From: Cupriavidus metallidurans CH34
GTDB lineage: Bacteria; Pseudomonadota; Gammaproteobacteria; Burkholderiales; Burkholderiaceae
DNA: 64,000 nt
Assembly (NCBI RefSeq): GCF_000196015.1
Contig: NC_007974.2
Span: 2,516,085 to 2,580,084, forward strand
Direction of reading: 5' to 3'
Shown here: piece after piece, positions 37,701 through 63,976 of the stretch
Position numbering within the stretch: position 1 is the first letter of the stretch
Layout of the letters: each line of letters starts with the position of its first letter
Translations under genes and position numbers: made by a program
Notes under the pieces: model-generated
Seen by the model: only the letters and a program-made list of their open reading frames with translations
Database searches by the model: none
Told to the model about the DNA's origin: nothing

Positions 37701-37751
37701 GCGTACCCATTTCTGCGCACGCCAAATGCCCGAAGCGTACCCGTTTCTGCG
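37701..37751 (-). repeat. Dispersed 17-mer, two copies (37701-37717 and 37735-37751)
   Basis: Read on minus: CGCAGAAATGGGTACGC and CGCAGAAACGGGTACGC, both exact to the consensus, 34 bases apart in the same orientation. They lie between the divergent OPT transporter and 2-hydroxyacid dehydrogenase genes. Confidence 0.9.
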
Positions 37752-37865
37752 AGCGTGGGCGAGGGCCGGCAGCCATCGAGCATCAGGCATAAAATGGCGC
37801 TTCGGCCGCTGAAGCCGACATCCAGAAGCAGTCTCTCCCTCGCCTTGCCGTTACGTCCTGAAGTC

Positions 37866-38801
37866 ATGAAGCCCGCTCTGCTCATCCTCAACCATCTCGA
37901 ACCTGCCCACCTCGCCCTTATCGCCGAACACTACGACGTTCGCTATGCGCCGACTGCCGCCGAACGCGCTACCGAGGTCGCTACCAATGGCAAGACCTTC
38001 CGCGCGGTGCTCACCATCGGCAGCATTGGCTTGACCGCGAAAGAAATCGACGCCATGCCCGCGCTGGAGCTGGTCTGCGCGATGGGTGCCGGCTACGAGA
38101 ACATTGACACCGCCAAATGCCGCGAACGCGGCATTGCCGTCGGCAACGGCGCCGGCACCAATGACAGTTGCGTGGCAGACCATGCGATGGCGTTGCTGCT
38201 GGCGTCGGTACGCCGCGTACCCGCGTACGATCGCGCCACGCGCGAAGGCATCTGGCGCAATGCGCTGCCGCTGGCCCCGAATTTGTCGGGCAAGCGGATG
38301 GGCATCGTCGGGCTGGGCACGATCGGCCGGCGAATCGCGCAACGTGGTCTCGGGTTCGATCTGGAAATCGGCTATCACAACCGCCGCCCGCGCACGGACG
38401 TGCCGCATCGCTACTTCGACAGCGTGATGTCCCTGGCCGAATGGGCCGACTACCTGATCATCGCCACGCCGGGCGGCGCAGAGACGCGCCATATGGTCGA
38501 CACGCCCGTGCTGCGCGCGCTGGGCCCGGCGGGCTATCTGGTGAATATCGCGCGTGGCAGCGTGGTAGACACGGCGGCGCTGGCGGCCGCGCTTCGGGCA
38601 GGCGAACTAGGCGGCGCGGGGCTCGATGTCTACGAAAGCGAGCCGGCACCGCCCGTCGAACTGTTCGATTGCCCCAACGTCGTGCTGACGCCGCACGTGG
38701 CCGGCTGGTCGCCCGAAGCAATCTTCGCCTCGGTCAGCCAGTTCGTCGAGAACGCGCGGCGGCACTTTGCCGGCGAGCCGCTGGTGGCGCCGGTACTCTG
38801 A
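37866..38801 (+). CDS. D-isomer-specific 2-hydroxyacid dehydrogenase
   Basis: 311 aa. NAD(P)-dependent; this group reduces glyoxylate, hydroxypyruvate or related 2-oxoacids. The nucleotide-binding motif is GLGTIGRRIA (about residue 151), the catalytic Arg is in NIARGSVVD (about 229), Glu in DVYESEP and His in LTPHVAGWS. All three are present. The ATG at 37866 was chosen because MKPALLILNHLEP fits the family start. Sits beside the sensor kinase gene (convergent). Confidence 0.92.
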   Translation: MKPALLILNHLEPAHLALIAEHYDVRYAPTAAERATEVATNGKTFRAVLTIGSIGLTAKEIDAMPALELVCAMGAGYENIDTAKCRERGIAVGNGAGTNDSCVADHAMALLLASVRRVPAYDRATREGIWRNALPLAPNLSGKRMGIVGLGTIGRRIAQRGLGFDLEIGYHNRRPRTDVPHRYFDSVMSLAEWADYLIIATPGGAETRHMVDTPVLRALGPAGYLVNIARGSVVDTAALAAALRAGELGGAGLDVYESEPAPPVELFDCPNVVLTPHVAGWSPEAIFASVSQFVENARRHFAGEPLVAPVL

Positions 38802-38813
38802 TCAGCCGACAGA

Positions 38814-40148
38814 TCAGGCGGTCACAGGAAACACCACCCGCACACACAGCCCCGGCGCCGCATCTTCCAGAAAGACGCGCGCGCCGTGCGACTGTGCGAT
38901 CTCGGCCACGATGGCCAGACCCAGCCCGCTGCCGCCGGTGGGCGCATCTGGAACGCGATAGAAGCGATCGAATACGCGCTCGCGCTCGGCGGCTGAGATG
39001 CCCGGGCCGTTGTCGATCACGGCCAGTTCCACACCCGCCGCGATCTCGCTCACCCGCACATCGATGCAACCGCCACGCGGAATGTATTGCAGCGCGTTGT
39101 CGACCAGATTGGTCAGCAGGATGCGCAAGGCATCGGCATCGCCACGCACGGTGGCCTGACTCCCGGCCTTGTCATCCAGACCGAGGTCGATATCGCGATT
39201 GATGGCGGCCTGGGACATATCCGCCACCACGCCGACGGCCAGTTCGCGCAGGTCGATCGGTTCATGTGGCGGCGGCACGGCACCTGGCTCCTGCCGCGCC
39301 AGCGTGAGCAACTGCGCCACGAGGTGGGTCAACCGCTCAAGCCCCTGCCGTAGCTGGCCCACGGCCTCCTGCCGGGCCTCGGCATTTTCGGCGCGTTCGA
39401 CGAGTTGAGCCTGCAACTGCAGCGCGGCCAGCGGCGTGCGCAACGCATGAGCGGCATCGGCCACGAACGCGCGTTGCGTGTCGATGGCATGCGCCAGCCG
39501 CCCCAGCAACTGATTCAAGGCATCGGATAACGGCGCGATCTCCACGGGCATATTGCGCACGGACAGCGGCGCCAGCGTGTTGGCATCGCGCGCGCTCACC
39601 TCGCTGGCAATCTCGCGCAGCGGCCGCAGGCCACGCCCCACCGCCAGCCACACCAGCCAGCCAAGCAGCGGCAACAACAGCAGCAGCGGCGCCACCGTGC
39701 GCAGCGCCATATGCGCGGCCAGCGTGCGACGCGCGCTCATCGGCTGGGCGATCTGCACGACCGCCGGCCCGAGCTGCACGCTGTAGATGCGCCACTCGCC
39801 AGAGTTGGTCTGCGCATTCGAGAAACCCAGCTCCGCCTGCGGGGGCAACGCCGGATGCGAGTGCGACAGATAGAGGCTGCGTCCCGATCCATCCCAGATA
39901 TGGATCACGACGTCCTCGTCGGCATGCAGCAGGTCGGCGCCGGTGGCGCTGCCGGAATCGAACGGCGGCGGCGCCGGCGCGGAAAACTGGCTCGGCAACG
40001 CGGCCGCCAGTTGCTTCATCTGGTAGTCGAACAGCGCGTTGGCTTCCTGCCGCGCCTGCCCATAGATCAGCGCGGTGGCCACGGCGATCCCCACGGCAAG
40101 CCCCGCCGCCAGCCACCAGAGCAGCGTACGTTGAATCGAGCGCATCAA
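38814..40148 (-). CDS. Two-component sensor histidine kinase, QseC/TctE-like
   Basis: 444 aa. Two membrane helices (about 10-30 and 153-172) enclose a periplasmic sensor domain. A HAMP-like linker and H-box ADAAHALRTPLAAL (phosphorylated H234) are followed by N-box NLVDNALQY, and G-boxes DNGPGIS and GGSGLGLAI. All catalytic boxes are intact. The start overlaps the regulator gene by four bases. It lies at the end of the zwf-pgl-glk cluster, so it may sense a sugar acid or citrate-like signal; that is an inference from context. Confidence 0.92.
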   Translation of the reverse strand: MMRSIQRTLLWWLAAGLAVGIAVATALIYGQARQEANALFDYQMKQLAAALPSQFSAPAPPPFDSGSATGADLLHADEDVVIHIWDGSGRSLYLSHSHPALPPQAELGFSNAQTNSGEWRIYSVQLGPAVVQIAQPMSARRTLAAHMALRTVAPLLLLLPLLGWLVWLAVGRGLRPLREIASEVSARDANTLAPLSVRNMPVEIAPLSDALNQLLGRLAHAIDTQRAFVADAAHALRTPLAALQLQAQLVERAENAEARQEAVGQLRQGLERLTHLVAQLLTLARQEPGAVPPPHEPIDLRELAVGVVADMSQAAINRDIDLGLDDKAGSQATVRGDADALRILLTNLVDNALQYIPRGGCIDVRVSEIAAGVELAVIDNGPGISAAERERVFDRFYRVPDAPTGGSGLGLAIVAEIAQSHGARVFLEDAAPGLCVRVVFPVTA

Positions 40149-40873
40149 TGCATGGCTCCCTCGGGACCACCCTTGGTGTCTTGTTCCGCGCCGCTTTCGG
40201 CGGGGATCACATAGCCCACCCCGCGGATATTGCGAATCAGCGCCGCGCCGAACTTGCGGCGCAGCGCATGGATATAGACCTCCACCGTATTGCTGCCGAC
40301 TTCATCATCCCAGCCATACAACCGCTCCTGAAGCTGCGGCACCGACCACACCTTGCCGGGTCGAGCCATCAGCGCCGACAGCAGTGCGAATTCACGCGCC
40401 GACAGCCGGACGGACGCGCCGGCCTGGGTGGCTTCGCGGGTGGCGGGGTTGAGCATGATGTCGCCGTAGCGCAGCACCGGTTCCGCGCGCCCCTCGGCAC
40501 GGCGCACCAGCGCGTGCATACGGGCCGCCAGCTCCTGCAGGTCGAACGGCTTGATCAGGTAGTCGTCGGCGCCAGCGTTGAGTCCTGCCACGCGGTCGGC
40601 CACCGCGTCGCGCGCGGTCAGGATCAGCACCGGCGTGCGTACGTTGCGGGCCCGTAGCGTCTTCAGGACGTCGAGCCCCGGGCGGCGCGGCAAACCCAGG
40701 TCTAGCAGCACCACGTCGTAGCCGCCGTCGGCCCGGGGACCGTGCTGGTCCGATGCGGCGTCGAGCCCGGCATCGCCATCGCGCACCCAGTCGACCGTAA
40801 AACCCTCCTGGCGCAGCGCCACCTTCACGCTTTCGCCGATCATGGCGTCATCTTCTACCAGCAATACACGCAT
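40145..40873 (-). CDS. OmpR/PhoB-family response regulator
   Basis: 242 aa. Receiver domain with acidic pocket EDD (8-10), phosphorylated D58 (VVLLDLGLP) and K in LIKPFD; a C-terminal winged helix (LSAREFALLSALMARPGKVW, SNTVEVYIHALRRKF). Relatives are QseB/TctD. It overlaps the kinase and follows glk by six bases, so all may be one transcript with zwf-pgl-glk. Confidence 0.94.
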   Translation of the reverse strand: MRVLLVEDDAMIGESVKVALRQEGFTVDWVRDGDAGLDAASDQHGPRADGGYDVVLLDLGLPRRPGLDVLKTLRARNVRTPVLILTARDAVADRVAGLNAGADDYLIKPFDLQELAARMHALVRRAEGRAEPVLRYGDIMLNPATREATQAGASVRLSAREFALLSALMARPGKVWSVPQLQERLYGWDDEVGSNTVEVYIHALRRKFGAALIRNIRGVGYVIPAESGAEQDTKGGPEGAMH

Positions 40874-40879
40874 CGTCTT

Positions 40880-41890
40880 TCAGGATTGAGAGGTCTCGGC
40901 GCGGCGCGCGTCGGCTTCAAGCCGATCCGCCAGTGCGCGAGCCAGGCCCGGCAGCGCCGGATACTCGGCCGTGATCACGTACACCGGCACATCGGCAAGG
41001 AAACTGCCCATGCGGCCCTTGGCGACAAAGCGCTCCGCGAACGTCGACGCCCGTAGGGCATCGACAAAGCGTGGAACGATACCACCGCCGAGATAGACGC
41101 CACCACGTGCGCCGAGCACCAGCGCGACATCGGCGGCAACCGAGCCGAGCATCCCGCAGAACGCGTCGAAAGCGCGGCGGCATACCGGGTCGCCCGCGCG
41201 CATCGCGCCGTCCGTCACCTGCGCCGGTGCCAGCGGCACCTCCAGAGGCGTACCCATTTCTGCGGACAGCGCGGCATGAATATGCGAGAGACCCATACCC
41301 GACAGCAGCCGCTCCGCCGACACGCGCCCAAACTGATCGTGGGCGGCGCGCCAGGCGATCCACTCGTCGTCGGTGACCGGCATGATCTCGATGTGTCCGC
41401 CCTCGCCCGCCAGCGCCACCGCGCCACCCGGCGCGGGAATCAGGCCGGATACGCCAAGGCCGGTTCCCGGCCCGATCAAGGCCCGGGGCGCCGTGGCCAC
41501 CGCCGTGCCGTCGCGTACCTGCACAAGGCTGGCGTCGGGCAGATACGGCAGCGCCAGCGCCAGCGAGGTGAAGTCGTTGATGGCCACCAGCGTGTCGAGA
41601 TCGAGCGCGCGGCGCATGGCCTCGACGGAGAACGCCCAGTTGTGGTTGGTCAGCTTGACCTGGTCACCAGTGACCGGATTGGCCAGGCCGATGGCCGCAT
41701 GGCGCGGCCGGGCCGCGCCGCTACGCGTCAGCATGTAGAGCCGCATCGCGGCTTCGAGCGAGGCGTGCTCGGCCACCTTGTATGCGGTGATCTCGCCGAT
41801 CCGCATCGGCGCCGTCTCCATGGCAAAGCGCACGTTGGTGCCGCCCACGTCGGCCAGGATCCGGGGATAGGACATCGCGCGATCCGTCAT
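40880..41890 (-). CDS. glk: Glucokinase
   Basis: 336 aa. ATP-dependent phosphorylation of glucose to glucose-6-phosphate, the substrate of Zwf. Family motifs: ILADVGGTNVRFA, INDFTSLALALP (catalytic Asp), GPGTGLGVSGL, EGGHIEIMP, and GARGGVYLGGGIVPR. The ATG at 41890 lies four bases after the pgl stop. Odd point: a perfect copy of the dispersed 17-mer (41248-41264) is inside the coding region, read as SAEMGTP in frame, without disturbing conserved motifs. Confidence 0.95.
   Translation of the reverse strand: MTDRAMSYPRILADVGGTNVRFAMETAPMRIGEITAYKVAEHASLEAAMRLYMLTRSGAARPRHAAIGLANPVTGDQVKLTNHNWAFSVEAMRRALDLDTLVAINDFTSLALALPYLPDASLVQVRDGTAVATAPRALIGPGTGLGVSGLIPAPGGAVALAGEGGHIEIMPVTDDEWIAWRAAHDQFGRVSAERLLSGMGLSHIHAALSAEMGTPLEVPLAPAQVTDGAMRAGDPVCRRAFDAFCGMLGSVAADVALVLGARGGVYLGGGIVPRFVDALRASTFAERFVAKGRMGSFLADVPVYVITAEYPALPGLARALADRLEADARRAETSQS
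41248..41264 (-). repeat. Dispersed 17-mer inside glk
   Basis: On minus it reads CGCAGAAATGGGTACGC and is translated as part of LSAEMGTPLEV. The only copy inside a gene. Confidence 0.9.
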
Positions 41891-41894
41891 CGGC

Positions 41895-42575
41895 TTAGAC
41901 CCGGAAGACATCGACGCCGTGGCGGTGCCGTGCCAGCACGACACTGACCGGCAACGAGGGCGTCGGCGTCTTCAGCGCCTGCTCCAGCACGGCGGCCTTC
42001 TTCTCGCCGCTGATTGCCAGGAACATGCGGTCCGCCGCCAGCAACGCGGCCAGGTTCAGCGTGACGCGCGCATGGGGCGCGACGGACGGATGGGTAACGA
42101 TATAGCCCGGAGTCGGTTCGGACAGGGCGGTCTGAAGCTCAGGCGCATCCGGAAACAGCGAGGCCGTGTGACCATCTTCGCCCATGCCCAGCACTACTAC
42201 ATCCGGTTGCAGGAAGGCCTGATTCAGGCGCGCCACCGCGCTTTGCGGATGCGCGGCCTCGGCCTCATCGCGGATCAACGGCGCCCAGGCCGCCACGCCC
42301 GCGCCTTCGCGCAGCAAGTGGCTGCGCACCATGGCTCCGTTGCTGTCGGCGTCATCGGGCGGCACCGCGCGCTCGTCGACCAGCGTGACCGTCACGGCTT
42401 CCCAGCGAACGGGGCGGTAGCGCAGTCGTTCGAACATGGCTTGTGGCGACTTGCCGCCCGACACGGCCAGCACGGCCCAGCCTTTGGCCTTGATCGCGAG
42501 ATCAAGCGCGTGACCGATCGAGATGGCCAGTGATTCAGCCTGGTCCATCAACGTCGCATGTTCGAATTGGCGCAT
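41895..42575 (-). CDS. pgl: 6-phosphogluconolactonase
   Basis: 226 aa. Hydrolyses 6-phosphogluconolactone to 6-phosphogluconate. The DevB-type features are LAVSGGKSPQAMF near residue 37, VDERAVPPDDADSNGAM near 67 and LGMGEDGHTASLFP near 131. Length is normal. Sits 81 bases after zwf and four before glk in the same direction. With edd nearby, the product goes into the Entner-Doudoroff route. Confidence 0.95.
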   Translation of the reverse strand: MRQFEHATLMDQAESLAISIGHALDLAIKAKGWAVLAVSGGKSPQAMFERLRYRPVRWEAVTVTLVDERAVPPDDADSNGAMVRSHLLREGAGVAAWAPLIRDEAEAAHPQSAVARLNQAFLQPDVVVLGMGEDGHTASLFPDAPELQTALSEPTPGYIVTHPSVAPHARVTLNLAALLAADRMFLAISGEKKAAVLEQALKTPTPSLPVSVVLARHRHGVDVFRV

Positions 42576-42656
42576 GGGCTGCTCCTTCTACTCCTTATGG
42601 TTCTCGTGTCGTGGTGAATCCGATGTTTCCGATGTCTCCGATCCTTCGGTGGCGCG

Positions 42657-44111
42657 TCAGGCCTCCTCATGCCATAACGCGCCGTCGCGCGACATCAGGG
42701 CCGACGATGCCGCCGGTCCCCAGGTGCCGGCCGTGTACGGTTTGGGCGGCACGGTGCTCTGGTCCCACGTATCGAGAATCGGCTCGACCCAGCGCCACGC
42801 CTGCACCTGCTCGTCGCGTCGCACGAACAGGCCAAGCTTGCCGCGGATCACGTCGAGCAACAGCCGCTCGTATGCGCCCGCACGGCGCATCTTGAACGAG
42901 TTGGCGAAGTCGAGATCGAGCGAGGTCGGCGTCAGCTCCACGGTATCGCCCGGTTGCTTGACCAGGAAATACAGGCGGATGCTCTCTTCGGGCTGCAGCC
43001 GTATCACGAGCCGGTTCTGCGGCGACAGGGTCAGCGGCCGGGGAAAGATCGCATGGGGCACGTCGCGGAAATGGACCACGATCTCGGCCACGCGCGATTG
43101 CATCCGCTTGCCCGTGCGCAGGTAGAACGGCACCCCTTCCCAGCGCCAGTTGGCGATTTCGGCCTTGATGGCAACAAAGGTCTCGGTCGTGCTGTCGGCG
43201 GCGATGCCCTGCTCGTCGACGTAGCTGACCACGGGCTTGCCGCCGACGGCGCCGGCGCGATACTGGCCGCGCACGGTCTTCTCGGCAACGTCCTGCGGCA
43301 GGATTGGCTTGAGCGCCTTGAGGATCTTGATCTTCTCGTCGCGAATCGCGTCTTCGGACAGGCTGGCCGGCGGTTCCATCGCCACCATGCACAGCAGTTG
43401 CACCAGGTGGTTCTGCACCATGTCTCGCAGCGCGCCGGTGCGATCGTAGAAATCACCGCGTGTCTCCACGCCCAGTTCCTCGGCGATGGTGATCTGCACG
43501 TCCTGCACCCACTCGCGCCGCCACAGCGGCTCGAACAGCGCGTTGGCGAAGCGGATCGCCATCAGGTTCTGGACCGATTCCTTGCCCAGGTAATGGTCGA
43601 TCCGGTAGATCTGTTCCTCGCCGAAATACCGCGACACGGCGTTGTTGATCGCCTCCGACGAGTCGAGATCATGGCCGAGCGGCTTCTCAAGCACCACGCG
43701 CACGTTGGGTGCATTGAGGCCGGTTCGCCCCAGTTGCTCGCAGATCGGCACGAAGATATGCGGCGCCGTGGCCAGATAGCACACGACCACTTCGGGCTTG
43801 CGGGCCAGCACCTGCTCGGCCAGCGCGTCGAAGTGCGCCGGCTGGCGCGCGTCGGCCTGCACGTAGCCGATACGATCCATGAACGAGGTCCACGCTTCGG
43901 GTGGCGCATGTTCGAGGCCAGGACGCACGCTTTCCTCGAGCATCGCCTTGTATTGCTCGGTGGTGTGCGGATGACTTCCGGTAGCGAGAATGCGCGAGGA
44001 CGGGTGGAGACACCCCGTGCGGTGCGCGTCGAAAAGGGCTGGCAGCAGCTTGCGCCGCGCCAGGTCTCCGGTGCCGCCGAACAGCACCATGTCGAAATCG
44101 GGCAAGCTCAC
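42657..44111 (-). CDS. zwf: Glucose-6-phosphate 1-dehydrogenase
   Basis: 484 aa. Oxidises glucose-6-phosphate with NADP+. The cofactor motif is [15 protein letters not shown], and the catalytic signature RIDHYLGKE holds the active-site His and Lys. I take a GTG at 44111 ([13 protein letters not shown], with AAGGAG six bases upstream); an ATG 12 codons earlier would add residues across the ribosome site. First gene of zwf-pgl-glk; divergent from edd across a 315-base spacer. Confidence 0.96.
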
Positions 44112-44426
44112 CCTGGGCTCCTTGCGGGGGATGGGGCGCCCCGGCAACTATTGAGTCCGCCGCGCGGCGCATTGGTTCCGGCCATGGTACGTCACTCGCC
44201 GCCGCTTGGGCAGGGGGAAGTGGCCACGAGCATGACCCGCGCCGCACATCGGACCCAAAGCGTACCCGTTTCTGCGTGGCCCGGGTCACCGTGGCGGAAC
44301 ATCCGTGAGCCGCGTCAATCCCACATGCAGACGCCCCATGCAGACGGACATGTCGTCGATCGGGACGGCATTCCGATGATGCCCAGGAATTTCGACTACG
44401 CTGATAGCGCCCTACAGGAGACTTCC
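44112..44426. other. zwf-edd divergent spacer
   Basis: 315 bases without a gene. Contains one dispersed 17-mer (44260-44276) and a direct repeat CATGCAGACG at 44324-44333 and 44337-44346 (13-bp period), a possible regulator site. Promoters for both genes must be here, but no clear -35/-10 pair was identified, and I see no palindrome of the known HexR type. Confidence 0.55.
44260..44276 (-). repeat. Dispersed 17-mer in the zwf-edd spacer
   Basis: On minus: CGCAGAAACGGGTACGC, followed by TTT. Between divergent genes. Confidence 0.9.
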
Positions 44427-46253
44427 ATGCCCCGCCACCCCGTACTGGATGCGGTCACGGCCCGCATCGTGGCCCGCAGTGCCCCTACCCGCCAGGCCTA
44501 CCTGCAACGCACCCGCGCCATGGCGGGCCAGAAGGTCGAACGCGCCAACCTGTCGTGCACCAATCTCGCACACGGTGTGGCGGCGATGCCCGATGACGCG
44601 AAGATCCGGCTCAAGGCGCAGGAGCGGCCGAATCTCGCGATCGTGTCGGCCTACAACGAGATGCTGTCCGCACACCAGCCGCTGAACGCCTTTCCGCAGT
44701 GGATCAAGGAAGCCGCGCTGGAAGCCGGCGGTACCGCGCAGTTCGCCGGTGGCACGCCGGCCATGTGCGATGGGGTCACGCAGGGCCAGGACGGCATGGA
44801 CCTGTCGCTGTTCTCGCGTGACGTGATCGCGATGGCCACCGCGGTCGCGCTATCGCACCAGATGTTCGACGGCGTGCTCTGCCTCGGCGTGTGCGACAAG
44901 ATCGTGCCAGGCCTGGTGATGGGCGCGCTGTCGTTCGGACACCTGCCCGCCGTGTTCGTGCCGGGTGGCCCGATGACGACCGGCATGGGCAACGAGGAAA
45001 AGGCGCACATCCGCCAGCTCTACGCGGAAGGCAAGATCGGGCGCGAGGAACTGCTGGAAGCCGAGACACGGTCGTACCACGGCCCGGGCACCTGCACGTT
45101 CTACGGCACCGCCAATTCGAACCAGATGCTCATGGAGATCATGGGCCTCCATCTGCCGGGCACGGCCTTCATCAATCCGAACACGCCGCTCCGCGAGGCC
45201 CTGACCCGCGAATCCGCGCGCCAGGCGCTGCGGCTCGTCCACGGCGGCACGCGCTACATGCCGATTGCCGAAGTCCTGGACGAACGCGCCTTTGTTAACG
45301 GTATCGTCGGGTTGCTGGCCACTGGTGGGTCCACCAACCACACGTTGCACCTGATCGCCATGGCCCGCGTGGCCGGCATTCTCCTGACCTGGGACGATTT
45401 CGACGAACTGTCCGCCGCCGTGCCCTTGCTGGCGCGCGTGTACCCGAACGGCAAGGCCGACGTGAACCAGTTCCAGGCGGCCGGCGGGCTGCCGGTGGTG
45501 ATACGTGGGCTGCTGTCGCTGGGACTGCTGCATGACGACGTCAATACGATCGCCGGCACCGGTCTGGCCGATTACACGCGCGAGCCGGTGCTGCGAGACG
45601 GCAAGCTGAGCTGGATCGACGGCCCGGTGAAGTCCCTGGACGACACCATCGTGCGCACCGCCGACAGCCCGTTCGCCCCCGACGGCGGTATCAAGCTGCT
45701 CGATGGCAAGCTCGGCCGCTGCGTCATCAAGACATCGGCCGTCAAACCCGAGCATCAGGTCGTGGAAGCACCCGCCATCGTGTTCCATCGCCAGGACGAT
45801 CTGCTGGCTGCCTTCAAGCGTGGCGAGCTGGAGCGTGATTTCGTGGCCGTGCTCCCGTGGCAAGGCCCGTCCGCGTGCGGGATGCCCGAGCTGCACAAGC
45901 TCACGCCGACGCTGACGTTGCTGCAGGATCGCGGCTTCCACGTGGCGCTGGTGACGGATGGCCGCATGTCGGGCGCATCGGGCAAAGTACCGGCTGCCAT
46001 CCACGTCTGCCCCGAAGCGCATTCGGGCGGAGAGATCGGCAAGGTCCGCACGGGCGATATCGTGCGCGTGGATGCCCCGGCAGGCGTGCTCACGGTCAGG
46101 GTCGACGAGGCGGAATGGGCGTCCCGGCCCATGGACACGCCCGATCTGACACGCAATCGGCATGGCGTGGGCCGCGACCTCTTCGGCGGCTTTCGCGCGC
46201 ACGTGAGCACAGCCGAAGCCGGCGCGTGTTCGCTGTTCGCGGAAGAGCATTAA
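44427..46253 (+). CDS. edd: Phosphogluconate dehydratase
   Basis: 608 aa, normal for the family. Dehydrates 6-phosphogluconate to 2-keto-3-deoxy-6-phosphogluconate in the Entner-Doudoroff pathway, and uses a [4Fe-4S] cluster. IlvD/Edd features are seen: [46 protein letters not shown] and [17 protein letters not shown], carrying the cluster Cys. AGGAG six bases ahead of the ATG. The aldolase eda is not in the window. Convergent with mscS downstream. Confidence 0.96.
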
Positions 46254-46293
46254 TGGAATTGGGGGGACGGCCGCCGGGGCGGCGGCCGCGAAA

Positions 46294-46310
46294 GCGTACC
46301 CGTTTCTGCG
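46294..46310 (-). repeat. Dispersed 17-mer between edd and mscS
   Basis: On minus: CGCAGAAACGGGTACGC, followed by TTTC, and preceded by GTA. Lies between convergent stops, so it cannot be a promoter element of either gene. Confidence 0.9.
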
Positions 46311-46366
46311 TACGATTCTTGCGCGCGTTTTGTACGCGTTTTGCCCGCGTTTCGCGTGCGTGTGGG

Positions 46367-47299: not shown

Positions 47300-47316
47300 G
47301 CGTACCCATTTCTGCG
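47300..47316 (-). repeat. Dispersed 17-mer upstream of mscS
   Basis: On minus: CGCAGAAATGGGTACGC, followed by TTTT. Between mscS and the araC-type gene, both on the minus strand. Confidence 0.9.
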
Positions 47317-48296: not shown

Positions 48297-48313
48297 CGCA
48301 GAAACGGGTACGC
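48297..48313 (+). repeat. Dispersed 17-mer between the AraC gene and the MFS exporter
   Basis: On plus: CGCAGAAACGGGTACGC, followed by TTTT. Opposite orientation to most copies on this side. Confidence 0.9.
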
Positions 48314-54506: not shown

Positions 54507-54540
54507 ACGGAAACGGCCCGCTTCTGCGGGCCGTTTCCGT
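54507..54540. terminator. Bidirectional terminator between TonB receptor and prfC
   Basis: Stem ACGGAAACGGCCCGC (54507-54521), loop TTCT, complement at 54526-54540: 15 perfect base pairs between convergent stops. Confidence 0.85.
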
Positions 54541-54559
54541 TCTCGAACTACGCTGGGGA

Positions 54560-56191: not shown

Positions 56192-56248
56192 AGGCCCGAA
56201 CGGCGCAGCGGCACCGGGGCGCGGCTGGCCCGAGGGCGGACAGGGGCG

Positions 56249-57214: not shown

Positions 57215-57435
57215 GGCGTTCATCCTTGGGTAACTTCGCCAAGCATAAGTGGAGAGATCGGCACCGTCAAAGTCGTGCGGCCGCGCCACGATGAATACGA
57301 CCGCCGTCATCGGCATCCGGGCGTGAGTTCATCATAGTGCGCGCGGTCAAGCACCGCGCGGACACGCCTGCTAGAGTAGATCAAGGCACAATAACCGGCC
57401 GGGTCATCCACTCGCCGGGATACCAGGAGGCAATC

Positions 57436-57630
57436 GTGATTCGCACCATGCTTGGCCGGTCCCATGTTGTGCGCGACATCGGGCTGACGCTCTGCCTGAC
57501 GTTCTGCCTGGGCACGCTGGCAGGATGCGATCGGAATCAGGCGCCGGGGCCGGGCCCCAAACCCATCTCCAGTAACGGATCGCAAGCCGCAGCCACCAGC
57601 GCGTCGTCCCCGGCCGGCACGCCTCGCTAG
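57436..57630 (+). CDS. Small lipoprotein
   Basis: 64 aa from a GTG with AGGAGG five bases upstream. Signal to lipobox LAGC (about residue 31), then a short Gly/Pro/Ser-rich tail (NQAPGPGPKPISSNGSQAAA). No domain. Similar tiny lipoproteins are widespread; function not known. Divergent from yihY. Confidence 0.75.
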   Translation: MIRTMLGRSHVVRDIGLTLCLTFCLGTLAGCDRNQAPGPGPKPISSNGSQAAATSASSPAGTPR

Positions 57631-58167
57631 AACACGGCACCGAGCGCGGTGCGGTCTGGTTCGGCAAGCACCGAGCGTACCCATTTCTGCGGCAGCGGAT
57701 CGCCTGACCGCCTGTTTCAGGGTTGCAACAAGGTGCACAGGCATCGCTGTCTACCACGCCGGACATGCCATGTGGACGCCGAACCGCTCACCTCGTGGCC
57801 TGGACTCGCATGGCCGCCCTTCCAGTGGATGCGCAGGCCGTTAATCCACCGCTCATCTTCCGTTTCCCCCCGAATCCGGCCCGGGCTGCCGGCCAGGCCG
57901 GCCCGCTGAAGCGCCCACGGTTTGCCGGCTTGTTGCGCGCGTGCACGCGCTTGCAGCCGACATTCACGCCTTCGGTTACAGCCGCGAAACCGAATGGCAT
58001 CGAAGCATGTCATCCCGCCGGGAACGCTTGGCACGTCAACGGCCTGCAGGCCTTGCGGCACAAGAGAAAGCATGACATTGGCACGCTTGTCGCTCTGGAG
58101 AGTCAGTGCCAGAAGAACACGAGCCAGTGACAACAATACGAAAGTGACCCCGGGAGAGGAAACAGCC
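57631..58167. other. Intergenic region with one dispersed 17-mer
   Basis: 537 bases. Overlapping open frames on both strands (57717-58169 minus, 57723-58130 plus) lack ribosome sites and family resemblance, so I leave them out. Holds the repeat at 57675-57691. Confidence 0.5.
57675..57691 (-). repeat. Dispersed 17-mer downstream of the small lipoprotein
   Basis: On minus: CGCAGAAATGGGTACGC. Located 45 bases after the lipoprotein stop. Confidence 0.9.
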
Positions 58168-58374
58168 ATGCGTCATCCACCAGCGCGCATGACGGCGCGC
58201 AGACGCGCCTATCGACTTGCGGGCCCCGCGCCAAGCGTCCAGGATCTGCTGTCGCCGCCCCTGCTCCCGTCGCCGCGAGCGCCCAGACGACCCGCCATGT
58301 CCTATTGCGCGGCCGCCGGCTGTGGCGTGGCTGCCTGCGCCAGCCGATCCCGCAGCGGGCCGCCCAGTTACTGA
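58168..58374 (+). CDS. Possible small basic protein, doubtful
   Basis: 68 aa. An ATG with GGAGAGGAAACAGCC upstream, a good ribosome site. The product is Arg/Pro/Ala-rich (MTARRRAYRLAGPAPSVQDL, PPLLPSPRAPRRP) with no signal or domain. The composition is what random high-G+C sequence gives, so only the ribosome site supports it. Confidence 0.3.
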   Translation: MRHPPARMTARRRAYRLAGPAPSVQDLLSPPLLPSPRAPRRPAMSYCAAAGCGVAACASRSRSGPPSY

Positions 58375-58495
58375 CGGGCCGCTTTCTCACGCGGGCGGGT
58401 GATTGGTCGTTGCTTTTTGTCGCGCGCGGATCTACACCGGTTTACGTGCTCCGTCCCCCGGCGGGCACCTTTTTTAGTGAGGGAGGGAGCCACCC

Positions 58496-58816
58496 ATGCA
58501 CGCTAGAGTCCTTGCCGCCCTCGCGCTGGCCTTGCTCTCGAGCATTGCGACGCCGGCCCTGGCAGGCAACTACGCATACTTCGACCGGCCCGACGACGTG
58601 AACTTGAACAGCCATGCGGCCGTCAGCAACGACACCTATGTCCGTACCTTTGGCTGGGCATGGGGAGACGTGCGCTTCAAGCCGGACCAGCCGGCAAAAT
58701 CCGATGAGCGGCAGGCTCGCGATAGCGCGATCGATCCGCACGAGGCGCTGCCCGATCACAACCACGATGGCACCACGCCGCCGCGCGGACGGCGCGGCAA
58801 GATCAGCATGAGCTGA
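58496..58816 (+). CDS. Small exported protein
   Basis: 106 aa. Strong GGAGGGAG ribosome site and signal peptide (HARVLAALALALLSSIATPA, then LAGNY). The mature part contains NYAYFDRPDDVNLN and FGWAWGDVRFKPDQP and a His/Asp-rich end (DHNHDG). No family recognised. Ends ahead of a hairpin terminator and convergent with the sigma-54 activator gene. Confidence 0.7.
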   Translation: MHARVLAALALALLSSIATPALAGNYAYFDRPDDVNLNSHAAVSNDTYVRTFGWAWGDVRFKPDQPAKSDERQARDSAIDPHEALPDHNHDGTTPPRGRRGKISMS

Positions 58817-58898
58817 TCACTCCGGGAGGAAGAATCGTTCGGCATTGCGCGGGCCAAGCCGCGCTAGCCTGCCACCGCTGTCCGGGCGGCAGGACAAA

Positions 58899-58931
58899 GG
58901 AGACTTGGCGAGCGGACGTCGCCAAGTCTCC
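58899..58931. terminator. 13-bp hairpin between convergent genes
   Basis: GGAGACTTGGCGA (58899-58911) pairs with TCGCCAAGTCTCC (58919-58931) around GCGGACG. No strong T-run; position fits a terminator for both the exported-protein gene and the sigma-54 activator. Confidence 0.7.
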
Positions 58932-58980
58932 CTTGGCACTTACTGCACGTGCTGTTTCAGAACTTTCTGCATCGAAGTCG

Positions 58981-60354
58981 CTACTCCGCCGACGCGCCGG
59001 GCTGCGTGTCGATGCGGATGTTGTGCTTGTGCATCAACCGGTATAGCGTCACGCGCGACACGTTGAGCTCGCGCGCCGCCGGCACCACGTGAAAACCATG
59101 GCTGGCCATGACGGAGCGGATCGCCTCGCGTTCCGCCTCCTCGCGAATCGCATCCAGCGTCTTGCGTGGCACCTCCACCCCACCGTGCAGTTGCAGATCC
59201 TCCGCCGTGATTTTCCGGTTGTCGGTCATCACGATGGCGCGACGCACGCGGTTGATCAGTTCGCGCACATTTCCGGGCCACATGTACTGCATCATGGCCT
59301 GCGTCGCGCAGGTGGAGAAGCCACGGATACGCCGGTGCGCCTCGTGGCCGTGTTCGGCCAGCACCGTATTCGCGAGCAGCAGGATGTCCTCGCCACGCTC
59401 GCGCAGCGGCGGAATGGTCAGGGTCAGCACGCAGAGCCGGTGGAACAGATCGGAGCGGAACCGGCCGTCGCTCTGTGCCGCCACCAGGTCCACGTGCGTG
59501 GCGGAGATGATGCGCAGGTCGAGCGGAATCGACTGGTGCCCGCCTAGGCGCGTGATCATGCCTTGCTGCAGGAATCGCAGCAGGGCAACCTGGCTTTCCA
59601 GCGGCAGGTCACCAATCTCGTCGAGGAACAGCGTGCCGCCCTGGGCCTGCTCGATCCAGCCGATCTTGCGCTGGTTCGCGCCGGTGAACGCGCCTTTCTC
59701 GTAGCCGAACAGTTCCGATTGCACGAGGTGCGATGGAATCGCGCCGCAGTTGATCGCCACGAACGGCCCCTTGCGGCGGCTCGACGCTTCGTGGATGGCC
59801 TGGGCTGCGAGTTCCTTGCCCGTGCCCGATTCGCCGGAGATGAACACCGGCGCGTCGTTGTGCGCGACCTTCGCCAGCGAGCGGAACATGTTGCCCATGG
59901 GCGCGCACTCTCCGATCATCGGCCCGCGCGCCACCAGTTCGGGCGAGCGAGCCCCGTGCAGACATGCCATGCCATGCGCGTGCTTGAGCGTGTAAAGCAA
60001 CTCGTCGAACGAGAATGGCGTGCGCACGTAGTCGACGCAATAGTCCCGGATCAGACGACGGATGCGCTCGTCCTCCAGCATTGCCGTGGATGTAATGGCG
60101 ACCCACATCACATGCAGGTGCTGTAGCGCCTGTTCGAGCTGGCTCAGCTCGGCGTCGGTGTAAGGCGTCTGCAGGTCGAGCACGCCAGCCATGGGCGAAC
60201 TCGCACGCACCAGGCGCTCGAGGTCGCGAACCTGCTGCACCCGGCGGATTTCCCATCCGGAGCCAAACTGGTTCGCGTTAAATCCAAAATCTTCATAGCG
60301 CGACACGAGCACGATCTGTGCGGTCCGTGTCGGCGCCTTGCACAGTCGGTCCAT
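58981..60354 (-). CDS. VpsR-like sigma-54-dependent transcriptional activator
   Basis: 457 aa from the ATG at 60354 (GGGAG six bases before). The N-terminal ~130 residues form a receiver-like VpsR domain (RYEDFGFNANQFGSGWEIRR) lacking the usual phosphoacceptor acidic set, followed by an AAA+ domain (Walker A GESGTGKE near 173, sigma-54 loop GAFTGA near 221, Walker B FLDEIGDLPL), and a Fis-type HTH at the end (ARELNVSRVTLYRLMHKHNI). In Vibrio and Burkholderia relatives control exopolysaccharide or biofilm genes; no such genes lie here. Confidence 0.9.
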   Translation of the reverse strand: MDRLCKAPTRTAQIVLVSRYEDFGFNANQFGSGWEIRRVQQVRDLERLVRASSPMAGVLDLQTPYTDAELSQLEQALQHLHVMWVAITSTAMLEDERIRRLIRDYCVDYVRTPFSFDELLYTLKHAHGMACLHGARSPELVARGPMIGECAPMGNMFRSLAKVAHNDAPVFISGESGTGKELAAQAIHEASSRRKGPFVAINCGAIPSHLVQSELFGYEKGAFTGANQRKIGWIEQAQGGTLFLDEIGDLPLESQVALLRFLQQGMITRLGGHQSIPLDLRIISATHVDLVAAQSDGRFRSDLFHRLCVLTLTIPPLRERGEDILLLANTVLAEHGHEAHRRIRGFSTCATQAMMQYMWPGNVRELINRVRRAIVMTDNRKITAEDLQLHGGVEVPRKTLDAIREEAEREAIRSVMASHGFHVVPAARELNVSRVTLYRLMHKHNIRIDTQPGASAE

Positions 60355-60479
60355 GACGTTCTCCCGGACGTTGAACTTCTTGTTAGTGGCGGAACCCAAG
60401 CCCGCAGGTGTGGCGGCGAGCCGCATGGCCCGTTCGGGGTCCGCTGGCTGCGCGGTCGGTGCCGCGCGCAACGTGGGAA

Positions 60480-60941
60480 TCACGGTCTGGACAAACTGTG
60501 TGGGGATTCTTCCGCGACGCTGACCTGGTCGCGTCCTGCGCTCAGCTGGTCGCGGATTCGTCGGCGCACCATGTCCTTTTCGAGCATCAGTTCGATGTTC
60601 GGTGCGTCGGGTGACTGGCCGGAGTACTGGAAGTACAGCGTCTTGTAGGTCTGCTGGCTGAGAATCCATTCCTGGAGCAGCTTGCGCTGTCGCGAAAGCT
60701 CTTCGGCCAGCAGGCGGTGCCGGTGCAGTAGTCCTTCTACCGCGGCGCGGGTGCGCGGCGATACTTCCTGGTCATCGGCAAGCACGGCGGCGACTTCGGC
60801 AATGGCGTAATCCTCGTGCCAGTCTGACAGCGCGATGCCTGCTGACGCTTCACCCAGGACAGTCCACGCACGGTGGGCGGACGGCTTGGCGGATTCGCTG
60901 ATGGGCCCGATGGCGGGACGCCGGATTTCTCCTGCGGTCAT
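60480..60941 (-). CDS. Small helical protein upstream of the sigma-54 activator
   Basis: 153 aa. Starts MTAGEIRRPAIGPISESAKP; the middle is helical and charged (AAVEGLLHRHRLLAEELSRQRK, part of a probable coiled coil at about 80-115). No signal or membrane segment. The gap of 125 bases to the activator start may be a leader, and co-transcription is possible. Family unknown; it may be a partner of the activator. Confidence 0.55.
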   Translation of the reverse strand: MTAGEIRRPAIGPISESAKPSAHRAWTVLGEASAGIALSDWHEDYAIAEVAAVLADDQEVSPRTRAAVEGLLHRHRLLAEELSRQRKLLQEWILSQQTYKTLYFQYSGQSPDAPNIELMLEKDMVRRRIRDQLSAGRDQVSVAEESPHSLSRP

Positions 60942-61204
60942 GATCTGTTCCCCGTTGCACAACATCCCCCGGCACTACACGTTCGCTTGTTACCACTATC
61001 TCTGTTCTGGATTGGATCTGTCTTTATATGACGCGTATCTGGTTCGCGCGCTCTTTATTTCGTGGTGGCGAAGCCGTTGGCGCGAAAGCGAACGGTCTCA
61101 TTGTCGGCCGATCCTTGTATTGGCTGAAACTTGCCGGATCTGGCGCTTTGTCGGAAACGCTTGCCGGTTATCGCCGGCGTCCTCCGATTCCCGGAGTCAA
61201 GAAA

Positions 61205-61230
61205 GGGCGCTCTTGCGCCCTCAAATTTTT
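61205..61230 (+). terminator. Plus-strand intrinsic terminator with no gene ahead of it
   Basis: GGGCGC (61205-61210), loop TCTT, GCGCCC, then TCAAATTTTT. No protein gene on plus ends here, so it may end a small RNA or serve the minus strand, where the sequence after the stem is also T-rich. Confidence 0.55.
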
Positions 61231-61297
61231 GCCACGCCTATAGTTCAGTGCATTTGGCCTCTTTTGTCCAGCCCGGCGTAGTCCCCTTCCTCCTACT

Positions 61298-61315
61298 CTC
61301 ATACTTTTGTATGAG
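61298..61315. promoter_or_regulatory. Short perfect hairpin CTCATAC-TTTT-GTATGAG
   Basis: Seven base pairs around a T4 loop, in the AT-richer spacer. Could be an operator or RNA hairpin. No link to a gene shown. Confidence 0.35.
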
Positions 61316-61369
61316 GCGTGTACGCGGCTTTATGCGGAGGCTGCAAGGTAAATAAGCACTCACATTCCC

Positions 61370-61386
61370 CGCAGAAACGGGTACGG
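61370..61386 (+). repeat. Dispersed 17-mer, variant
   Basis: CGCAGAAACGGGTACGG: last base differs. 27 bases before the next copy. Confidence 0.85.
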
Positions 61387-61412
61387 TGGGTGTCCCGATC
61401 CCGCGTTTCATA

Positions 61413-61429
61413 CGCAGAAATAGGTACGC
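61413..61429 (+). repeat. Dispersed 17-mer, variant
   Basis: CGCAGAAATAGGTACGC: one change (TA in place of YG). Preceded by ATA, giving TACGC at both ends with a 14-bp period. Confidence 0.85.
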
Positions 61430-61505
61430 ACTGCAGCATTTCCATCCGCCGAATGTCATCGTTTTCATTTTGACGATGGCATGGCAACGCCCGCGGAAAG
61501 AAAAA

Positions 61506-61523
61506 GGACGGCCAAGGCCGCCC
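61506..61523 (-). terminator. Intrinsic terminator of the purine permease gene
   Basis: On minus: GGGCGGCC-TT-GGCCGTCC followed by TTTTTCTTT. One mismatch in the stem. Located 33 bases after the permease stop. Confidence 0.78.
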
Positions 61524-61555
61524 TGTTTTCACAGCAAATGGCCAAGCCGCCGTGC

Positions 61556-62917
61556 TCAGTGCCCTGGCAGGTAGTAGAACTTGAACAGGAAGACTGCCGC
61601 GATGACCCACGCCATCACCGGCACCTCGCGCGCGCGGCCGGTCAGGAGCTTGAGGCCGGCATAGGCGATGAAACCAAACGCCACGCCATTGGCCACCGAG
61701 TAGGTGAACGGCATTCCAAGCGCCGTCAGCACCGCGGGCACGACCTCGGTCGCATCGCTCCAGTCCACATCGACCAGTTCGCGCAACATCAGGCAGGAGA
61801 CATAGAGCAGCGCGGGCGCCGTTGCGTAGGCGGGAACGGTGCCAGCCAGCGGCGCAATGAACAGGCACGCCAGGAACAATACCGCCACGGTTACCGCTGT
61901 CAGGCCCGTACGGCCGCCGGCCTGCACGCCCGAAGCGCTTTCGATATAGGCCGTGGTGGACGACGTGCCGAGCAACGAGCCGGCCATGATCGCGGTGCTG
62001 TCCGCCATCAACGCCTTGTTCAGACGGTCCATCCGACCTGCCTTCAGCAGCCCGGCGCGATTGGCCACGCCCATCAGCGTGCCCGTGGCATCGAACAGCT
62101 CCACCAGGAAGAACACCAGCACGACGTTGACGATGCCGATCGACAGCGCAGCGGAAATATCAAGCTTGAACAGCGTGGGGGCGATGGACGGTGGCGCGGA
62201 AAATACGCCGTGGAACGTGTTCCCACCGAAAACGAAACTCAGGATCGTGGTGCCGAGAATGCCGATCAGGATGGCGCCTTTCACCTTAAGATGATCCAGC
62301 GCGACGATGGCGAAGAAGCCAATCACCGCCAGGATCGCGGACGTCTGATGCAGGTCGCCGATGGTGACAAGCGTGGCCGGGCTGGCTGTGATGATGCCTG
62401 CATTCTTAAGCGCGACGATCGCGAGGAACAGGCCGATGCCCGCAGTGATCGCCACGCGCAGCGCGTGCGGAATCCCGTTGACGATCATCTCGCGCACACG
62501 GAACAGCGTCACCAGCAAGAAGAGGCAGCCTGAAATGAAAACCGCGCCAAGCGCGGCTTCCCACGGCAAGCCCATGCCCTTGACGACCGTATAGGCAAAG
62601 TAGGCGTTCAGCCCCATGCCAGGCGCCATCGCGATCGGATAGTTCGCGTAGAACCCCATGATCAACGTGCCGATGGCGGCGGCCAGGCAGGTGGCCACGA
62701 ACACTGCATCTTTCGGCACACCGGCATCGCCAAGGATGCTCGGGTTGACGAAAATGATGTACGCCATGGTAAGAAATGTGGTCACGCCCGCGAGAATTTC
62801 GGTGCGGGCGTCGGTCTTGTGTTCACCGAGCTTGAAGAGGCGCTCGAGCACACCGGTCGATGGCTGTGCGAGGGTGGATTCGCTGCCTGGCCGTGGCCTC
62901 TGGTCCGACGTGGACAT
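61556..62917 (-). CDS. Purine permease of the AzgA-like NCS2 family
   Basis: 453 aa, about 13 helices. ILAGVTTFLTMAYIIFVNPS and MAPGMGLNAYFAYTVVKGMG are markers of the AzgA subgroup (adenine, guanine and hypoxanthine:H+ symport; GhxP, AdeP in E. coli). A shorter TRAGLLKAG region and SLLGTSSTTAYIESASG complete the core. ATG at 62917 with AGGAG. Which purine is carried cannot be told. I saw no purine riboswitch in the short leader. Confidence 0.9.
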   Translation of the reverse strand: MSTSDQRPRPGSESTLAQPSTGVLERLFKLGEHKTDARTEILAGVTTFLTMAYIIFVNPSILGDAGVPKDAVFVATCLAAAIGTLIMGFYANYPIAMAPGMGLNAYFAYTVVKGMGLPWEAALGAVFISGCLFLLVTLFRVREMIVNGIPHALRVAITAGIGLFLAIVALKNAGIITASPATLVTIGDLHQTSAILAVIGFFAIVALDHLKVKGAILIGILGTTILSFVFGGNTFHGVFSAPPSIAPTLFKLDISAALSIGIVNVVLVFFLVELFDATGTLMGVANRAGLLKAGRMDRLNKALMADSTAIMAGSLLGTSSTTAYIESASGVQAGGRTGLTAVTVAVLFLACLFIAPLAGTVPAYATAPALLYVSCLMLRELVDVDWSDATEVVPAVLTALGMPFTYSVANGVAFGFIAYAGLKLLTGRAREVPVMAWVIAAVFLFKFYYLPGH

Positions 62918-63063
62918 CACTGGTCTCCTGACTGTTGACGAAGTGCTCACTGCGCCGCCAGCGCTGTCTGCCAACGGGCACTTCATCGACAATATGCAAA
63001 AAGGCGAGATGATCCCATATGCTGGGTTTGTTGATCCAGCTTAGGTTGGGGTAATCCCCTGCC

Positions 63064-63092
63064 TTGACGGGAGCCTCAATCCCCCGTATAAA
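63064..63092 (+). promoter_or_regulatory. Sigma-70 promoter of the cold-shock gene
   Basis: TTGACG (63064-63069) and TATAAA (63087-63092) are separated by 17 bases. A start near 63099 would give a leader of about 144 nt, typical of cspA genes. Confidence 0.7.
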
Positions 63093-63189
63093 TCTCCGCC
63101 AGATTCAAGCGACGAGGCAACAGTTCATTCGTTAGCCACCGTCTTGGTACTTCGGTTGTCCATGGTGTCCTTTCCTTGAGTTCGCTGTA

Positions 63190-63231
63190 CGGTGGTGTGT
63201 GCACCATCGGTTTCTTTTATATTTTTTTTGG
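63190..63231 (+). promoter_or_regulatory. Hairpin and T-tract in the cspA leader, possible attenuator
   Basis: CGGTGGTG (63190-63197) pairs with CACCATCG (63202-63209) with one mismatch, followed by a T-rich run with eight T's, ending about 12 bases before the ATG. It looks like an intrinsic terminator inside the leader, or a temperature-sensitive structure near the ribosome site. Confidence 0.45.
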
Positions 63232-63242
63232 AAAGCAATACC

Positions 63243-63446
63243 ATGCAAACCGGTATCGTAAAGTGGTTCAACGACGCCAAGGGCTTTGGCTTCATCAAGC
63301 CGGACGCTGGCGGTGACGATCTGTTCGCTCACTTCTCGGAAGTCCGTGCCGACGGCTTCAAGTCGCTGCAGGAAAACCAACGCGTGTCGTTCGAAGTCAA
63401 GAACGGCCCGAAGGGTCTGCAAGCAGCGAACATCACCCCGCTGTAA
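63243..63446 (+). CDS. cspA: Cold-shock-domain RNA-binding protein
   Basis: 67 aa, the canonical length. An OB fold that melts RNA structure at low temperature or in stationary phase. RNP1 is KGFGFIKP (about 13-20), RNP2 LFAHFSE (27-33). Long leader with its own promoter; terminator follows. Paralogues are common in this group, so the symbol is generic. Confidence 0.95.
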   Translation: MQTGIVKWFNDAKGFGFIKPDAGGDDLFAHFSEVRADGFKSLQENQRVSFEVKNGPKGLQAANITPL

Positions 63447-63492
63447 GCGTTGTGATTCCGAGTGCACCTTGACGGTGCGCTCGATCGCGAAG

Positions 63493-63518
63493 AACCCGCC
63501 TTTATGGCGGGTTTTTTT
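63493..63518 (+). terminator. Intrinsic terminator of cspA
   Basis: ACCCGCC (63494-63500), short loop TTTAT, GGCGGGT (63506-63512), then T6. Confidence 0.88.
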
Positions 63519-63600
63519 ACGCCCAACGCTTTCATAGCGCCCCAAGCCAAGCACTGCGCCCGGCATCCCCCTGGCAGCCCCTACCCACTCCTGACCCTCT

Positions 63601-63976
63601 CGCAGAATCGGGTACGCTCTCGTCCTCCGTCGACGCTGGCCTGCACGGTCCCCTCGTCCCAACCCATCCGCATGGGCACGCAGAAATAGGTACGCTTTTC
63701 GCGCGGATCCGACGGACACCTCCAGTTGCTCCGCAGAAATGGGTACGCCTGGTGGGTAAATAGGTCCATCTTCATGTCGCGCCGATCCAACGAGCCTGAG
63801 CGCTCACGGTCAAGGAGTCTGATCGACCTTTCCTGCCTATCAAAGAGGCAATCGGGTTATCCACGCAGAAACGGGTACAGCGCACTCGCCACCACGGCGC
63901 CGATGTCCCATTCCGAAGGGTGCTCGCAGAAATGGGTACGCTGTTTTCCGGCATTCGTACGCAGAAACGGGTACGG
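63601..63976 (+). repeat. Cluster of six dispersed 17-mers in one orientation
   Basis: Copies at 63601-63617 (CGCAGAATCGGGTACGC), 63679-63695 (TAGG variant), 63732-63748 (exact), 63864-63880 (ends TACAG), 63925-63941 (exact) and 63960-63976 (ends ACGG). All read in the plus direction. Spacing is irregular (35 to 132 bases between centres), so it is not a tandem array or CRISPR. Unexplained. Confidence 0.9.

Follow-up and report, generated by a model that had tools for sequence, protein, structure and literature searches.

Why a 17-bp word should occur 16 times within 26 kb of a bacterial chromosome is the question raised by the DNA examined here. The stretch (hereafter the window; G000:C4:2516085-2580084) comprises the last 64 kb of the 2,580,084-base contig C4 of Cupriavidus metallidurans CH34, in which G000 denotes the strain's own genome and C4 its second chromosome, a 2.58-Mb chromid. 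C4 was taken to be circular, and positions are given relative to the contig junction, at which its ends meet. As judged from sequence, the word, CGCAGAAAYGGGTACGC, is likely the iteron of the chromid origin and a putative binding site of the initiator RepA. Further copies are dispersed on both sides of the origin, and their number, position and conservation are the main subject of this report.

The 17-bp word in the window

An earlier note, made from the letters of the window, had listed 16 copies of the word, 10 of them exact and six changed. On recount, all 16 positions were correct, with 10 exact copies, five with one mismatch and one with two; seven were on the minus strand and nine on the plus strand. 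When up to three mismatches were allowed, the window held 17 matches, compared with a mean of 0.58 and a maximum of 3 in 100 dinucleotide-preserving shuffles, in agreement with the view of the note that chance cannot explain the repeats. The 17th match, at window position 36375, differs at three positions and represents a level expected by chance. The word was confirmed to be non-palindromic, and the surround of the copies in this genome, read by eye, showed nothing evident in common apart from the 17 bp and a CTTT that often follows them.

The note had also stated that no copy occurs in the first 37.7 kb. At up to two mismatches this holds inside the window, but the series does not start there: an exact copy lies at C4:2509932, ~6 kb before the window. 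On the other side, the series continues beyond the window end across the contig ends, from C4:36 to C4:117241.

The word at the chromid origin

The right end of the window is the origin region of the chromid, because the far contig end opens with the continuation of a repeat array (C4:36-892), followed by repA (C4:946-2040) and by genes of the ParA and ParB types (parA and parB). The array spans C4:2579685 to C4:892 across the contig ends (~1.3 kb) and holds 17 copies at up to two mismatches, 15 of them in the same orientation. Its left part, cut off by the contig end, is formed by the last six copies of the window (63601-63976), all on the plus strand: 63601..63617, 63679..63695 and 63960..63976 with one mismatch each, 63732..63748 and 63925..63941 exact, and 63864..63880 with two mismatches. 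As in an iteron-controlled, plasmid-type origin, the array consists of direct repeats of ~17-22 bp, and a rep gene adjoins it: repA matches Pfam RepA_C (PF04796, E = 3e-32), which was the only Pfam match of the chromid initiator. A winged-helix initiator fold is typical of the Rep proteins of such origins; a PDB sequence search for RepA returned no solved structural relative, only two chance-level matches.

At the origin, the word is already known. The available passages of the 2010 genome paper of C. metallidurans CH34 describe a putative RepA-binding repeat, present at least 12 times upstream of repA at the CHR2 origin (PMC2864759), and those of a study of C. necator NH9 describe 20 similar repeats at the Chr2 origin (PMC6379261). 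The word agrees with these repeats in its 17-nt consensus, its location at the origin and its repA-parA-parB neighborhood. Both accounts, in these passages, concern origin repeats only; the dispersed set, its conservation and the site in a coding sequence are what differs here. The refutation named in the earlier note, a short repeat family already described in the genus, is therefore half borne out: the word is known at the origin, and the passages do not mention dispersed, position-conserved copies. Such a set was not found described in the open-access literature searched, and a search with the exact letters matched no paper. Within the reach of this search, the dispersed, selected copies are the new part.

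Other features of the origin region are as follows. The palindrome CTTTCAGCGCTGAAAG, a good candidate on sequence grounds for parS of the chromid, was found in each of 30 Cupriavidus repA loci (L064-L093) and occurs at L022:2742-2757, in the repA-parA gap, and at L022:3593-3608, inside parB. A shorter palindrome, GTATAC, occurs at 11 places in 220 kb, of which 6 fall inside the 1.5-kb origin (L022:20-876, C4); one copy overlaps the last iteron before repA and one sits in an AT-rich stretch. Two similar 67-codon genes, cold-shock-type by eye, flank the origin and point towards it (window 63243-63446, plus strand; L022:2143-2346, minus strand), and two Ralstonia genomes retain one of them next to repA. 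The largest contig of C. metallidurans encodes a second RepA relative (G000:C3:3072504-3073181; 44% identical over residues 121-361).

Co-occurrence of the word and RepA

The family sample comprised 249 genomes, in which we inferred the groups g1 and g24 to be Cupriavidus and Ralstonia, respectively, and the g4 genome to be "Burkholderiaceae bacterium PBA". In 47 of the 249 genomes, namely 30/30 of g1, 16/16 of g24 and 1/1 of g4, the word occurred 17 times or more at up to one mismatch. The other 202 contained 0-2 copies, 15 of them one or two. RepA at least 84% identical was found in the same 47 genomes (248 searched), with only a fragment in G197. At E ≤ 1e-20, matches to RepA occurred in 54 of the 248 genomes, and those in the seven outside the 47 were at most 51% identical.

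We also analyzed 55 repA loci, which are drawn largely from the same genomes and do not constitute independent evidence. All 51 loci with RepA at least 89% identical carried 7-17 array sites, a locus with a RepA fragment (L223; 84%) carried 11, and three loci with RepA 36-38% identical carried none. Further, five plasmid loci with RepA 44-47% identical were fetched from 906 matching records, and all five possessed CGCAT...GGGGC repeats or their reverse complement upstream of repA, a layout close to that of the chromid word. Taken as sequence evidence, these results provide strong indirect support for the proposed binding of RepA to the array and the dispersed copies.

Number and position of dispersed copies

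When the whole genome of C. metallidurans was searched at up to two mismatches, 43 matches were obtained: 37 on C4, one exact copy on C2 (171 kb) and five on C3, each of the latter with two mismatches. The reversed word gave three matches genome-wide. All 37 copies on C4 (17 in the array and 20 dispersed) fall in the interval that runs from C4:2509932 across the junction to C4:117241 (-70 to +117 kb), and the remaining ~2.4 Mb of C4 contains none. As sequence, these initiator-type sites outside and yet near the origin are what a datA-like sink would present.

The word was present in all 60 genomes of the genus. In the 53 genomes at least 99% complete, the number of copies at up to one mismatch was 28-43 (mean, 35.2; standard deviation, 4.4). 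Low counts were found in G047 (4 copies; 54% complete), G058 (4; 97%) and G045 (12; 78%).

Seven contiguous chromids were compared at the same threshold (G000, G003, G016, G024, G049, G054 and G055; G057 was left out, and off-chromid copies, one each in G000, G016, G024 and G055 and two in G003, were dropped). Each chromid possessed 12-14 array sites and 17-24 dispersed sites. Of the 142 dispersed sites, 135 lie from -45 to +125 kb of the repA start, and beyond 300 kb there was only one in 15.7 Mb (G024, at +649 kb). G049, G054 and G055 have almost the same offsets, and those of G024 and G000 are similar. On the left, the sites of the first three are located at about -3.7 kb (three times), -7.5, -14.6, -15.8, -18.8, -21.7, -24 or -25 (twice) and -38 kb, and on the right at +16 to +23, +47 to +49, +64 to +66, +76 to +79 (three times) and +112 to +114 kb.

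Recurrence of dispersed sites at gene junctions

Gene gaps were analyzed in genomes G000-G005 using our own gene caller, and any site (up to one mismatch) that did not fall in the densest 2.5 kb was regarded as dispersed. Intergenic sites accounted for 16/17, 14/15, 18/19, 12/15, 16/18 and 6/8 of the dispersed sites, respectively (82/92 in total), compared with coding fractions of 73-86%. The 17 sites of C. metallidurans were found in four convergent, six divergent and six tandem gaps and, in one case, inside glk, consistent with the statement of the earlier note that the word is not simply a promoter element.

To compare positions, we used gene pairs adjacent in both genomes and a length-weighted permutation. 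Sites of C. metallidurans recurred in the same gap in 6/6 cases in G001 (57 gaps; P ≤ 5e-5), 8/9 in G002 (84 gaps; P ≤ 5e-5), 2/2 in G003 (47 gaps; P = 1.2e-3), 2/3 in G004 (33 gaps; P = 1.3e-2) and 0/1 in G005 (10 gaps; P = 1). The orientation of the first site was retained in 16 of 18 shared gaps.

The flanks of the sites were much less conserved. At 15 hand-picked loci, ungapped flank identity was 0.35 within 20 bp and 0.32 at 21-60 bp, compared with 0.95 for the motif, a value that is high by construction as the loci were chosen for shared sites. The glk locus was an exception, with flank identities of 0.65 and 0.78. When 10 intergenic loci were aligned with gaps, 84 of 98 same-junction flank pairs scored within the 99th percentile of unrelated junctions, and eight of the 14 pairs above it came from one junction (79/80). 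Dispersed sites thus reappear between the same genes, although the sequence around most of them can no longer be aligned.

In the window, the dispersed sites begin with an exact pair on the minus strand (37701..37717 and 37735..37751) in the gap separating the divergent genes of an OPT transporter and a 2-hydroxyacid dehydrogenase, a gap common to G001. The exact copy at 44260..44276 (minus) lies in the divergent gap between the genes for glucose-6-phosphate dehydrogenase and dihydroxy-acid/6-phosphogluconate dehydratase. Other exact copies are located in a convergent gap (46294..46310, minus), in tandem gaps (47300..47316, minus; 48297..48313, plus) and in a divergent gap (57675..57691, minus). 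A pair with one mismatch each (61370..61386 and 61413..61429, plus) is found just beyond the 3' end of a xanthine/uracil-type permease gene, and the equivalent place holds a cluster in two Ralstonia genomes. An Entner-Doudoroff-like set of genes (glucokinase, glucose-6-phosphate dehydrogenase and dihydroxy-acid/6-phosphogluconate dehydratase) lies among the dispersed sites at 40880-46253.

A constrained site within glk

One exact copy (41248..41264, minus) is located within the coding sequence of the glucokinase gene glk (40880..41890, minus; PF02685, E = 6.7e-102), where it reads A-E-M-G-T. The site was found at the same codons in all six genomes G000-G005 and in all 30 genomes drawn from the 60 of the genus, with C (20 genomes) or T (8 genomes) at the Y position of the word or with one change (2 genomes); in two of the 30, the reading frame contains a TGA. 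The Y position toggles between Thr and Met, so that the glucokinase protein varies at the place where the word leaves a choice.

Synonymous positions were constrained. In the 30 glk genes, which come from related genomes and are not 30 independent events, the five-codon motif window ranked 1 of 301 for third-position conservation (0.993, compared with a median of 0.752). Its Ala codon was GCA in 30/30 genes, compared with 4.2% of Ala codons elsewhere in glk genes, and its GGT was likewise present in 30/30, compared with 6.8% elsewhere. In 20 glk genes taken from other genera (12 of g24 and 8 others, of 164 other genomes with a match), no place had fewer than four mismatches. In G003 and G004, the orthologue of gene 109 holds another coding site, which reads V-A-E-M-G-T. 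We concluded that the word is under constraint at the level of DNA inside glk.

Sites in Ralstonia and on other replicons

Of four g24 genomes, two contiguous ones (G178 and G191) were compared with Cupriavidus. Both have the array at the same place and a cluster downstream of the same permease gene, at about -3 kb. Most of their other sites fall within +3.5 to +24 kb, and each genome has three more, which reach as far as +154 and +208 kb. In the stretches to ~+24 kb, 3/14 and 5/18 dispersed sites, respectively, were inside called genes. For most genes around the sites, no close relative lies near the Cupriavidus origin. That the neighborhoods are largely different suggests a tie of the sites to the origin and not to their neighbors; the genera have in common a supply of origin-near sites rather than a set of neighbors.

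A few copies (up to one mismatch) were found on other replicons. Contigs of 0.17-0.6 Mb with copies carried 11 over 2.46 Mb, from which no rate follows as contigs without copies were not totaled; the carriers are G000 C2, G003 C3, G016 C3, G055 C3, G178 C3, and G191 C3 and C4. There are one or two copies per replicon (G000:C2:92709-92725, L028:9709; L095, L096, L097, L098 and L103-L106), and those of two related replicons, G003 C3 and G055 C3, lie in a stretch 74% identical between both. Chromosome-sized contigs carried five copies: one in G024, two in G178 and two in a duplicated segment of G191. No chromosome 1 copy recurred at a shared place across different genomes. A chromosome 1 trigger site built from this word was rejected for lack of a conserved copy; a trigger might have another sequence.

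A model for the dispersed sites

What is read from sequence, namely the word and where it lies, its conservation, its constraint as DNA and the fact that it co-occurs with RepA, can be accounted for in several ways. The reading that we favor, and hold to be moderately probable, is that the word is the chromid iteron bound by RepA, and that the outlying sites would sequester and bridge RepA and so limit re-initiation. RepA would bind the array of 12-14 sites (up to one mismatch), many of them variant, leading to origin opening, and a site located 54-70 bp ahead of the repA start might be used for autorepression. The 17-24 dispersed sites, mostly consensus-perfect, would form an initiator sink that holds RepA off the origin sites, and would also be handcuffing partners that RepA bridges to the origin. 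At typical fork speeds, the dispersed sites would be copied within minutes of initiation. Their number would double early, and re-initiation would be hindered until RepA re-accumulated. Besides RepA binding, the relative affinities, titration and handcuffing are inferences, the last two drawn by analogy with RctB sites of Vibrio cholerae.

The relative affinities concern the difference between exact and variant copies. In G000-G005 (up to two mismatches), 76/102 dispersed copies were exact, compared with 47/104 array copies (Fisher P = 2e-5), and in G016, G024, G049, G054 and G055 (up to one mismatch) the numbers were 71/105 and 30/68 (P = 0.003). T at position 8 (26/104) and A at position 10 (19/104) were frequent array variants. 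This no more than suggests strong dispersed sites and weaker array sites, and assumes that exact copies are bound more strongly.

Several observations weigh against the sequestration of RepA by a conserved set of sites. The contrast between exact and variant copies may be biased, as the consensus was partly built from dispersed copies and the genomes are related. The number of sites is not constant and rises with genome size (r = 0.67 in the 53 genomes, not corrected for kinship), and the offsets in G003 and G016 are rather different from those of the other chromids. The shared-gap test is weak for G003 and G004, with two shared gaps each, and empty for G005. On average, flanks at the same junction score slightly above unrelated ones (27.2 vs 23.1), and the copies on small replicons are not explained by self-titration.

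Among the alternatives, a mainly architectural role, in which RepA would bridge the dispersed sites and fold or position an origin domain of ~150 kb, is rather unlikely and yet the most serious. The sites fill a bounded domain, several as pairs or triplets, and such bridging might perhaps underlie the contacts of the C. necator ori2 with a large part of Chr1, as reported in the available part of PMC13342612. However, there is no conserved chromosome 1 partner copy of the word: C3 has only chance-level two-mismatch matches, and the few chromosome 1 copies of other genomes share no context, save the duplicated segment within G191, although a partner of another sequence is possible. That RepA or another factor regulates transcription from the dispersed sites as operators is considerably less probable. 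Many sites do lie in gene gaps, 6/17 of those of C. metallidurans in divergent ones, but 4/17 are in convergent gaps and one is inside glk, operators need not be confined to an origin domain, and the two Ralstonia genomes keep origin-near sites beside largely different genes.

Sites of a segregation or nucleoid protein would also fit the pattern in part, since parS sites are often origin-proximal and dispersed. The word is not a palindrome as a ParB site would be, and a separate palindrome, CTTTCAGCGCTGAAAG, is found at all 30 Cupriavidus repA loci; the 17-mer was thus rejected as parS, and a parS-like role is very improbable. Slightly less probable still are relics, that is, origin fragments scattered by duplication or transposition and kept by drift. 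They would have the same sequence as the origin repeats, as observed, but the copies of C. metallidurans have no evident common flanks (by eye), the word stays where most flanks have diverged, and glk shows synonymous constraint. Segmental duplication and a mobile repeat were rejected on the first two of these grounds. Of the options raised in the earlier note, a site for a replication-linked protein survives, in the form of an iteron of the chromid origin, and an unknown repeat family and a site of a mobile element do not.

Beyond RepA sequestration and bridging, we tentatively suggest a more far-reaching possibility, somewhat less likely than not, a dedicated two-class initiator-counting system for a bacterial second chromosome. 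Weaker variant sites at the origin would be combined with ~20 strong sites that are pinned at junctions over ~150 kb, are selected strongly enough to dictate codons of a metabolic gene, are rebuilt beside other genes in the sister genus Ralstonia and may be read across replicons via the stray copies on smaller replicons. If this were true, the lineage's missing replication timer would have been found.

Comparison with known systems

Control of secondary chromosomes to one round per cycle is best known from Vibrio. The dispersed sites resemble datA and DnaA-box titration in Escherichia coli in forming an origin-proximal initiator sink, although the initiator of E. coli is different; datA promotes DnaA-ATP hydrolysis.

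According to the available part of a 2026 survey with marker-frequency and Hi-C panels that include Cupriavidus necator, lineage-specific "timers" would extend what is known of crtS and of methylation control in Agrobacterium (PMC13342612). Candidate cis sites are now listed singly, are conserved and are easy to mutate. The copy number of an oriII plasmid in V. cholerae falls in the presence of origin-proximal RctB sites, an effect attributed to RctB titration (PMC3937223). As described in the passages available, those sites are similar to the present ones in being initiator sites outside the origin and near it on a plasmid-derived second chromosome (PMC3937223, PMC6090056). They differ in that here ~20 sites of one type lie on both sides of the origin and the 17-mer contains no Dam site GATC, unlike the iterons of the Vibrio RctB/crtS system; crtS, the initiator site on chromosome 1 in that system, does not resemble the Vibrio iterons in these passages.

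The secondary chromosome c2 of Burkholderia cenocepacia, of the same family, has an iteron array and a second cluster ~140 kb away (PMC4948915, available passages). It is thus similar in possessing an array plus distal sites, and differs in its iteron and in having few distal sites. We searched exactly for the c2 iteron in 120 family genomes and found it in 51, with at least seven matches in all 10 genomes drawn from g11, presumably Burkholderia. In the seven of these 10 genomes that had a distal group among the matches listed, this group lies 133-159 kb from the array, at one conserved locus in 7/7. A 785-codon open frame is bordered on both sides by the distal c2-type iterons of L226-L232, ~150 kb from the array. 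The same layout, on a smaller scale, is present in a second chromid lineage of the family.

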